Shown: positions 3,141 to 5,016 of the stretch, in pieces
Layout: each line of letters opens with the position of its first letter
Numbering within the stretch: the first letter of the stretch is position 1
From: a virus
Length of the DNA stretch: 35,739 nucleotides
IMG/VR virus record: IMGVR_UViG_3300031857_000647
Span: 1-35,739 of that record
Strand: one strand, 5' to 3'
Notes under the pieces: generated by a model
Told to the model about the DNA's origin: nothing
Databases searched by the model: none
What the model saw: the letters and a program-made list of their open reading frames with translations, nothing else
Position numbers and translations under genes: made by a program

Positions 3141-3374
3141 TTAACGGTAATGGATTGTAATTGAATTAAAATTATGTAAGAATACAGTTTCTTCATATAT
3201 GTTAACATTTAACTCTGGAGATATATTTTTAATATAGTTGAATATTTTATCTACTTCTTTTATATCGGTTCTTATTTTAATACGGCGAGTATCGGATTTA
3301 TAGAGGTCATTGTAAAAACCAAAGTTTTGACCAAATTCTTGACGTAGTAAAGGGCGTAATGTTTTCCAATTCAT
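3141..3374 (-). CDS. Hypothetical protein, 77 aa, mixed alpha/beta
   Basis: Not recognised. The order of secondary structure looks like helix (WKTLRPLLRQEFG), strand (RRIKIRTDI), helix (EVDKIFNYIKNI), strands (NVNIYEETVFLHNF, SITIHYR). It lies below the promoter at 3387-3424. Confidence 0.7.
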   Translation of the reverse strand: MNWKTLRPLLRQEFGQNFGFYNDLYKSDTRRIKIRTDIKEVDKIFNYIKNISPELNVNIYEETVFLHNFNSITIHYR

Positions 3375-3386
3375 ATTTTTTTATTT

Positions 3387-3424
3387 TTATTATATAATAA
3401 ATTTACATGAATAGTTGCGGTCAC
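3387..3424 (-). promoter_or_regulatory. GTG-N16-TAAATTTA promoter with palindrome
   Basis: GTG (3424-3422) followed by ACCGC, then TAAATTTA (3405-3398) after 16 bases; palindrome at 3387-3400. Directly upstream is a conserved element with CATCGACG and paired TATATA blocks, shared with the promoter at 4748-4785. Confidence 0.65.
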
Positions 3425-3687
3425 CCAATTGATATATCTGTATATATGTGCCGTCGATGAAAAGATCCTAAAAAAAGAGGATTCACCCACAATGCATTTA
3501 ATTGCAAAGGGGGTAAATCCAAGTCTGGGGGCGTGTTTGTTTGTATATAGGTATATATGCGTCGATGTGGAAAGGTGTATACGATCTAAAAATACATGTC
3601 CCCTTTTCACGGGTCAACCTCTCTCGTCGATGGACCTCAATTACCGGGGATCCTTTAAAAACAAAGATCCTCTAACACCCGCATAAG
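3425..3687. other. Gene-free island with repeated CATCGACG elements
   Basis: About 260 bases without a convincing gene and visibly richer in G and C than its flanks. On the minus strand CATCGACG occurs three times (3459-3452, 3567-3560, 3632-3625); the first two are followed by two TATATA-type blocks. Two near-copies of AAAGATCCT (around 3468 and 3657) form small inverted repeats with nearby AGGAT. Open frames on both strands are not supported. It may hold regulatory sites or a small RNA. Confidence 0.5.
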
Positions 3688-3933
3688 CTAATTTTCGTCC
3701 TCTGACATCCCGTCATCCTCATACGCGTTAAATGTTTTATTATATATACCGTTATCGATATCACCAATTAATGATTCGAGTTCATTTAGTGCTGACGATA
3801 GTGTTTCCACTACAGTAATACCATTGTCTATTAGCTCCTGGTTATCGGTTGAACGTATCTCGTATTCCAGATCATCATATATGGTCTGTAGTTCAGCCTT
3901 CATTGTATTCAGGTGTTGAATAATTTCACTCAT
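3688..3933 (-). CDS. Acidic hypothetical protein, 81 aa, coiled coil
   Basis: Not recognised. A strongly acidic protein with a heptad-like helix (IIQHLNTMKAELQTIYDDLE) and an acidic tail (YEDDGMSEDEN). Acidity and size resemble DNA-mimic or inhibitor proteins of phages, but no specific match is claimed. No clear promoter is seen in the 94 bases upstream, which contain a hairpin instead. Confidence 0.7.
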   Translation of the reverse strand: MSEIIQHLNTMKAELQTIYDDLEYEIRSTDNQELIDNGITVVETLSSALNELESLIGDIDNGIYNKTFNAYEDDGMSEDEN

Positions 3934-3970
3934 CGTTATTATATTTTTTACTATACGTATTTGTTATTTA

Positions 3971-4006
3971 GGGTAGGCGCTCCGCCCTGTGCGGAGTCAC
4001 CTAACC
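3971..4006 (-). other. GC-rich hairpin between genes
   Basis: CTCCGC and GCGGAG pair around a five-base loop, extended by GGTTAGG/CCTACC with a small internal mismatch. It follows the stop of the AT-hook gene. No T-run follows on the minus strand, so it is either a poor terminator or an RNA-stability or processing structure at the 5' end of the next message. Confidence 0.45.
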
Positions 4007-4027
4007 TCATTTACTAACCGTTGCTAA

Positions 4028-4276
4028 TTAAGCCTCGTTAACGATACTATCTACTAACGACTCAATCGATTTAACGGCCTTAGCCTTTTTAGCAACTGCC
4101 TTCACCTCGATAGTAACCTCAGCTACCTTCTTAGTACCGGCTGGACGGCCACGTTTAATTTCACCACCCGCAGCTACTTTAGCTGCGCGCATTGCAAGTA
4201 CTGCTTGACGTTTAGAACCTTCAACTGTTGGACGGCCACGTTTAGCTGTTGTTGTTGTTGTTTTACTTTTTGACAT
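4028..4276 (-). CDS. AT-hook, histone-like DNA-binding protein
   Basis: 82 residues, rich in Lys, Ala and Thr. Two AT-hook cores are visible, AKRGRPTVEG (about residue 13) and KRGRPAGTKK (about 42), followed by an Ala/Lys-rich tail (KAVAKKAKAVKSIESLV) like bacterial histone-H1-type proteins. AT-hooks bind the minor groove of AT-rich DNA, so a nucleoid-like or transcriptional role on this AT-rich genome is reasonable. The leader AAATAAAGGTTATG and the promoter at 4301-4336 fix the start. Confidence 0.8.
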   Translation of the reverse strand: MSKSKTTTTTAKRGRPTVEGSKRQAVLAMRAAKVAAGGEIKRGRPAGTKKVAEVTIEVKAVAKKAKAVKSIESLVDSIVNEA

Positions 4277-4300
4277 AACCTTTATTTTATTTGTTTTTTA

Positions 4301-4336
4301 TTTATATATTAAATATACTGAGTTCAGTTCGGTCAG
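4301..4336 (-). promoter_or_regulatory. CTG-N16-TATATTTA promoter
   Basis: CTG (4336-4334), ACCG, then TATATTTA (4317-4310) after 16 bases on the minus strand, followed by AATATATAAATAA instead of the perfect palindrome. It serves the AT-hook gene. Confidence 0.65.
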
Positions 4337-4340
4337 GCAA

Positions 4341-4589
4341 TTATCTGTGGTATGTACTTACCTCAGTGATCGCCTTAATAGCCTTAATTTCCTTAAGGTT
4401 AGCCTTATACTGGTCGGCTATATCTTTTAGCTGGCTAATAAGGTATTTCTTAGCGGCTGATAGTGATTTGAAGTGCGTGTGTTCATTGTCTAGGTAATCC
4501 TTACCTATCTCTCTCAACTCAATGTTGCTGTAGAACCCATCCATTACTACAGTATATGCTTTAACCATTTTCATTCGTTTCTCTTTCAT
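4341..4589 (-). CDS. Hypothetical protein, 82 aa
   Basis: Not recognised. A beta segment (VKAYTVVMDGFYSNIEL) precedes a long helix (SLSAAKKYLISQLKDIADQY). The ATG at 4589 is used; ATGs at 4574 and 4568 (MKMVKAYTV, MVKAYTV) are alternatives. The promoter at 4601-4635 is upstream. Confidence 0.65.
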   Translation of the reverse strand: MKEKRMKMVKAYTVVMDGFYSNIELREIGKDYLDNEHTHFKSLSAAKKYLISQLKDIADQYKANLKEIKAIKAITEVSTYHR

Positions 4590-4600
4590 GTGTTAATTAT

Positions 4601-4635
4601 TTATATATTAAATATAGTATCTCAGTTCCGGTCAG
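4601..4635 (-). promoter_or_regulatory. CTG-N16-TATATTTA promoter
   Basis: CTG (4635-4633), ACCGG, then TATATTTA (4616-4609) after 16 bases, followed by AATATATAAATAA. This is nearly the same -7/start region as the promoter at 4301-4336. Confidence 0.65.
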
Positions 4636-4639
4636 CCGC

Positions 4640-4741
4640 TTATTTAAACCACGTCTCATACGCCGCCTTAACAGCCGCATATACAATTAAACTTACTGCA
4701 CTAACTAAAACAAACTCTAAAATTGTGATGTGTGTGTTCAT
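4640..4741 (-). CDS. 33-residue membrane micro-protein
   Basis: ATG at 4741 to TAA at 4640 encodes one hydrophobic helix (ILEFVLVSAVSLIVYAAV) with a short amphipathic tail ending ETWFK. It fills the space between two promoters exactly, like the micro-protein at 538-645. No family recognised. Confidence 0.55.
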   Translation of the reverse strand: MNTHITILEFVLVSAVSLIVYAAVKAAYETWFK

Positions 4742-4747
4742 ATTTTA

Positions 4748-4785
4748 TTATTATATAATAAAGATAACGAACACGTCCCGGTCAA
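4748..4785 (-). promoter_or_regulatory. TTG-N16-TATCTTTA promoter with palindrome
   Basis: TTG (4785-4783), ACCGGG, TATCTTTA (4766-4759) after 16 bases; palindrome at 4748-4761. The upstream element CGTCGACG (4819-4812) lies 26 bases above the TTG, as in the promoter at 3387-3424 (27 bases). Confidence 0.7.
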
Positions 4786-5016
4786 CCGCTCGTATATACT
4801 TATATAGGGTCCGTCGACGGGAGGGCTTGGATGACCGCGCAAAAGGGGGGTACATGTGACACGTGCCACGACACATACATTATATGGCGGGTCACCTACT
4901 ATCATATGACCAATACCATTCTAACATGTCATATATGCGCTTTACCCAACGTTAGTTCACCTACTATATCTACTTGTCACCCGCTCAAACATTCATTAAA
5001 ACGCTTAACTATGCGC
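4786..5016. other. Gene-free island with CGTCGACG element
   Basis: About 230 bases with no convincing gene, relatively GC-rich. Next to the promoter are two TATATA-type blocks and CGTCGACG (4812-4819). Further right it holds GGGGGGTACATGTGACACG and two copies of TCACCTACTAT (about 4890 and 4958). A 66-residue plus-strand frame (4831-5031) overlaps the next gene and is not believed. Confidence 0.45.

Follow-up and report, generated by a model that had tools for sequence, protein, structure and literature searches.

The locus examined here raises the question of why a short element, YRTCGACG followed by two TATATA-type blocks, stands above two phage promoters and recurs in the gene-free island beside one of them. 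The window, the whole stretch of DNA that was analysed (35,739 nucleotides), is a 35.7-kb IMG/VR fragment of a T4-like phage that encodes a clamp loader and a glycosyltransferase with 57% identity to that of Flavobacterium phage immuto. A RecA/UvsX-like protein with an AT-hook-like KKRGRPSKK at its N terminus is encoded at 2-496 on the minus strand and is kept in relatives. A sequence-only reading of this DNA had proposed either an activator or repressor site, held at a constant distance from the promoters, or part of an origin. The two promoters in question are as follows.

3387-3424, minus strand: phage promoter GTGACC-N13-TAAATTTATTATATAATAA, with a start codon at 3374.
4748-4785, minus strand: phage promoter TTGACC-N13-TATCTTTATTATATAATAA, with a start codon at 4741.

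Examination of the bases confirmed both the coordinates and the sequence of copy 1 at 3459-3431 (CATCGACGGCACATATATACAGATATATC), upstream of the promoter at 3424-3387, and of copy 2 at 4819-4792 (CGTCGACGGACCCTATATAAGTATATAC), upstream of the promoter at 4785-4748. The position of a third copy (3567-3543) and the fourth box, CATCGACG at 3632-3625, were also as described, all on the minus strand. The distance from the end of the CGACG box to the -33 TTG is 27 bases for copy 1, where the TTG is a GTG, and 26 bases for copy 2, and in both cases the second TATATA block ends 6 bases before this position. YRTCGACG occurs six times in the window against an expected 0.29, a count in which one palindromic site figures twice, once per strand, and CRTCGACG combined with the twin TATATA blocks occurs three times in the window and in none of 500 shuffles.

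The promoters of the window are better read as a -33 TTG and a -7 TAnnTTT, of the Bacteroidetes type rather than the sigma-70 type. The spacing TGACC-N13-TAnnTTTA is fixed, with 14 sites in the window, 21 in the relative G002, and 16 in G006, and other spacings between the two motifs gave hardly any matches. All 14 window sites have the exact spacing and lie on the minus strand from 31265 to 536; in eight of them the -7 element continues into the palindrome TTATTATATAATAA. This promoter class is present in the clade of the window and nearly absent from more distant relatives that share the conserved module described below.

If the element served to activate or repress the TTGACC promoters, it should keep company and distance with them. 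The common layout of copies 1 and 2 (6 bp from the block end and 26-27 bp from the box end to the -33 TTG) speaks for such a role, as does the layout of copy 1, which is retained in the sisters L082 and L083. However, CRTCGACG is absent upstream of 12 of the 14 TGACC-N13-TAnnTTTA promoters in the window. In L082 the first TATATA block stands 17 bp from TGACC, in L093 it stands 78 bp away, and L091, L155, and L159 have no TTGACC promoter. The module also persists in the distant carriers G020, G021, G034, and G038, despite the presence of zero or one TTGACC-N13-TAnnTTTA promoter in each. The constant distance thus fails among relatives, and a regulatory site tied to the two promoters is already contradicted by these sequence comparisons, which show neither constant spacing nor regular co-occurrence; we consider it very unlikely.

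The alignment of relatives gave a different view of the third and fourth copies. Their positions stand, but they are not separate copies; both are ends of one conserved module, laid out as follows.

3543-3661, minus strand: the whole conserved module, consisting of a box, a fixed stretch of about 71 bp, and a TATATAC site (covariance model R1, E=3.6e-31, with the window copy itself among the sequences used to build the model).
3612-3638, minus strand: the upstream box GAGGTCCATCGACGAGAGAGGTTGACC, which includes the fourth CATCGACG at 3632-3625.
3582-3597, minus strand: a conserved middle block, ATGTATTTTTAGATCG, seen in the alignment of relatives.
3543-3567, minus strand: the third copy, CATCGACGCATATATACCTATATAC, which is the downstream end of the module.

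The order of the module on the minus strand is GAGGTCCATCGACG, the fixed spacer of about 71 bp, and then CATCGACG-TATATACnTATATA. The box of the module is GGTCCATCGACG; it is conserved as GGTCCATCGAcG in 110 unique loci among the matches listed, with GGTCCATCGA set by the search pattern. The spacing between copies 4 and 3 is 70-72 bp in the alignments, the sequence between the boxes is variable, and the AT-rich TATATACnTATATA is present in the module. The fourth copy was also considered as a promoter, TTGACCC-N20-TATTTTTA, and rejected, as the -7 element is not conserved in L083, L093, L111, and L155.

A scan with an exact pattern located the module in at least 119 IMG/VR viral stretches. All 110 unique copies among the matches listed are 90-93 bp long, the scan having allowed 80-98 bp. 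Among 84,980 prokaryote genomes the sole match was a coincidence of the wrong length (L329, in a Prevotella genome, at 96 outside the range of 90-93), and a match to TAATTGAGGTCCATCG in contig L117 was likewise set aside as chance, since it lies inside a gene. A sequence-only covariance model also found the module in distant contigs. One full copy each is found in G034, G038, G062, G063, G064, G065, and G066, which are contigs of 155-183 kb; terminal repeats of 127 bp in G034, 114 bp in G038, 127 bp in G063, and 58 bp in G065 suggest that these four are closed genomes. Strict pattern matches in 18 contigs all fall on a single strand within each contig. The island DNA had no match in cultured phages, and the module model had none in Flavobacterium phage immuto, Mel-JY01, RM378, or LR756508. 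Further copies thus exist and their conservation is strong and wide. Judged from sequence, the repeats noted earlier are parts of a non-coding module of about 115 letters, carried by many uncultured aquatic T4-related phages, and this module is a real, widely conserved cis-acting element.

An open reading frame of at least 60 aa overlaps 58 of 95 module copies. These frames are taken as chance because module copies vary by 1-3 bp in length, and for the same reason a 79-aa frame across island A (3371-3610), which also overlaps the promoter, is an unlikely gene. As to the surrounding genes (INDEPENDENCE from genes), the first downstream genes belong to 35 families and the upstream genes to 38 in the 59 loci with enough sequence. 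A regulatory region that outlasts such turnover of genes suggests a function for the whole genome, which is an argument and no proof. The gene at 4028-4276 on the minus strand of the window codes for a protein of 82 aa that has a pair of KRGRP AT-hook cores, and it is conserved alongside the module in the near relatives L082, L083, L091, L093, L094, L111, L115, and L155. This two-hook protein was considered as a ligand of the twin AT blocks and rejected; it was not found in the distant G020 and G021, and its Pfam AT_hook score is under the cut-off. In several relatives whose genes lie almost all on one strand, a rare opposite-strand gene lies about 1.5 kb or less from the module (G020 at 49.1 kb, G021 at 8.0 kb, G038 at 5.6 kb, and L184).

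The module is flanked on the minus strand by three further features of the island.

3647-3705, minus strand: iteron-like direct repeats TCAGAGGAC, TTAGAGGATC, and TTAAAGGATCC, running into GAGGTCC; weak in the window and clearer in relatives.
3470-3520, minus strand: a terminator-like hairpin, GGATTTACCC...GGGTGAATCC followed by TCTTTTTTT (fold z = -3.5).
3431-3459, minus strand: copy 1, TTTC...TATATAC...TATATCAA, at the position of the downstream (P1) site of relatives; a degenerate TTTG-N19-TAnnTTT.

The direct repeats that often stand upstream of the module are clade-specific in sequence. The array of the window is not significant alone, being reached by 12 of 100 shuffles, and repeats were also not significant by the shuffle test in L156, L157, L163, L123, and L184. 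In L082, L111, L115, L118, L186, and L188 the repeat pairs exceed all 100 shuffles. A 22-bp tandem repeat of 7.5 copies, AACTACAGAGGAACATTACCGG, stands directly upstream of the module in G005 (L167 11067-11239), and L186 carries GATAGCGG-type repeats with a period of 10-11 bp.

The hairpin with its T tract stands between the module and copy 1, and by eye it recurs with an altered stem sequence in L082, L093, and L111. Such a terminator-like structure after the module (z = -3.5 in the window, with terminators in several relatives as well) would fit a structured non-coding RNA gene or a leader RNA. The consensus fold of the core is nevertheless 0.0 kcal/mol and no Rfam family matches it, so that no conserved RNA secondary structure of the core was found, and the sequence between module and terminator differs between relatives. 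We regard a structured RNA of either kind as highly improbable.

With TATATAC used as a search handle for the downstream site, a second TATATAC was found 80-120 bp downstream of the module in 45 of 95 loci, where about 1.6 are expected. TTTG precedes it by 14-16 bp in 49 of 53 relatives, TAnnTT follows 8-9 bp after its start in 23 of the 53, and the two occur together in 22. Start codons lie within 30 nt of the second TATATAC in 54% of loci, compared with 20% at random positions. In some relatives this TATATAC overlaps the start of a coding sequence (Y-I codons), and coding may account for part of its conservation there. One or more genes occupy the interval between the module and the second TATATAC in L085 and L159.

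These observations bring in the main rival to a role in replication, namely that the module is a transcriptional control region and nothing more, an upstream regulatory array with TATATAC sites as operators or promoter parts for early expression of the small genes or tRNAs downstream. In favor of this, the downstream site resembles the TTTG-N19-TAnnTT promoter of Bacteroidetes and has start codons at 8-30 nt, genes start soon after the module's own TATATAC in L085, L115, L157, and L159, a tRNA-like sequence comes next in L091, and the strict matches keep to a single strand in each of the 18 contigs. The genes that would be driven are not conserved, however, which makes the selection that keeps the module hard to explain on these terms. 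The module's own TATATAC end lacks -33 and -7 elements, TTTG being found near -15 in 2 of 110 copies among the matches listed, and in G021 the module is followed by a terminator and then convergent genes. We regard transcriptional control as the sole function as a genuine possibility that falls well short of probable.

Nucleotide composition was examined in the four closed genomes by GC-skew in 20-kb windows over the whole genome, with the module masked. Measured from the module, the largest all-base skew step falls at +2154, -66, +1824, and +12 bp. When four-fold sites were considered, three of the genomes place the module step among the top 0.6%, 2.5%, and 1.5%, and the fourth only among the top 15%. 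By the usual bacterial convention the polarity of the step is that of a terminus. In G034 baseplate genes start no more than about 7 kb downstream of the module and early genes give way nearby, so the step may come from this change of gene class. The skew evidence is suggestive at most.

A terminus-like polarity raises the prospect of some other site serving the whole genome, for example a terminus of replication, a barrier to forks, a start of DNA packaging, or a site of partition or recombination. The single copy, its place in a gene-free island where composition switches, and the rare opposite-strand genes that adjoin it in G020, G021, G038, and others, agree with such a site. A conserved downstream promoter with a short leader would be unexpected there, and assemblies that end in short terminal repeats point to circular permutation with no fixed packaging end. 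This alternative is unlikely.

The second island of the window is organized differently, with two features that overlap on opposite strands.

4792-4819, minus strand: copy 2, CGTCGACGGACCCTATATAAGTATATAC; L093 and L111 lack its CGACG, and TATATAAGTATATAC is conserved.
4808-4847, plus strand: an inverted partial copy of the module (copy-4) box, GGTCCGTCGACGGGAGGGCTTGGATGACCGCGCAAAAGGG (R1 match E=0.36, weak alone).

In the copy-2 family of L093 and L111, CGACG is gone and CTATATAAGTATATAC is kept; by itself CTATATAAGTATATAC gives mostly chance matches in unrelated contigs and was discarded. The weak plus-strand R1 match at 4808-4847 (E=0.36) is adjoined by a match to TATATACTTATATA (E=0.005). 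Copy 2 reads as a different arrangement, which appears to adjoin the copy-4 box in inverted form in the next island. This second gene-free island (4786-5016, minus strand) contains repeated AGTAGGTGA(C/A) motifs, and L083 has similar motifs.

The reading that we prefer, with a little less than an even chance of being right, is that the module is a genome-level replication initiation site with an attached promoter, of the kind of T4 oriE and oriF. The origin option of the sequence-only reading is compatible with a module that occurs once per genome, lies in a gene-free island, and combines direct repeats, a fixed spacing of the boxes, and AT-rich blocks. Counted in favor of an origin are the occurrence in at least 119 stretches, the fixed length, the single copy, the turnover of neighboring genes, the upstream repeats, the second TATATAC, and the skew step. 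Counted against it are the terminus-like polarity, the gene-class change near the step, a four-fold-site skew that is clear in three of the four closed genomes, repeats that are insignificant in the window and some relatives, a second TATATAC whose conservation in some relatives may owe something to coding, and the failure to detect a copy in cultured relatives. In the proposed mechanism the boxes and repeats would be the binding sites of a phage or host protein, the TATATAC blocks, being AT-rich, would open, and a short transcript might prime or assist replication, by analogy with T4 origins. Copy 1 of the window would then be a degenerate downstream promoter site ahead of the TTGACC promoter, and copy 2 a neighbor of the inverted partial box in the next island.

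It is possible, and rather less than probable, that the module defines a new class of single origin in a large aquatic group of uncultured T4-like phages, with a fixed-length two-box module, clade-specific repeats, and a host-type promoter that shares GTATATAC, kept independently of neighboring genes. The hosts of the phages that carry it are probably Bacteroidetes. A strongly conserved, sequence-definable site that occurs once per genome in many T4-like phages would offer a direct handle on the start of replication or on early-gene control in this large group. The module is also a non-coding landmark for finding, orienting, and comparing uncultured T4-like genomes.

Comparison with known systems places the region near several of them. 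The Bacteroidetes promoter pattern is TTTG / TAnnTTTG (PMC6847099, PMC2483708), and the P1 site of relatives, TTTG-N19-TAnnTT, is consistent with it; P1 differs in that its spacer holds the conserved GTATATAC, and the window itself has a degenerate form (TTTC...TATATCAA). The iteron origins of plasmids and lambdoid phages likewise have direct repeats beside an AT-rich stretch, but no initiator gene was found beside the module, and the sequence of its repeats shifts between clades. T4 itself has several origins without a common motif (PMC3016281). Its oriE contains evenly spaced 12-nt repeats, whose role is unproven (PMC3016281). Common to oriE and the region studied here are clustered direct repeats in a genome of the T4 type, kept at the same place by related phages, and the involvement of a promoter, which is putative for the present region (PMC3016281). 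In contrast to the even 12-nt iterons of oriE, the repeats here vary from clade to clade and are weak in places, and the most conserved part is a box module of fixed length, distinct from the repeats and putative in its origin role. The T4 origins oriF and oriG are units of about 100 bp that combine a middle promoter with an unwinding element rich in A+T (PMC3016281). The module likewise measures about 100 bp and joins a short box, a presumed protein-binding site, to an AT-rich element and a transcript, for both of which the likeness is one of analogy only. It differs in that a terminator-like hairpin can come after it and in its promoter; neither a MotA-dependent middle promoter nor a sigma-70 -10 was found in the module consensus, and the P1 consensus of relatives has the Bacteroidetes-type TTTG/TAnnTT instead. 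By this analogy the region resembles the T4 origins in its list of parts, and it is assigned to neither the oriE type nor the oriF/oriG type.
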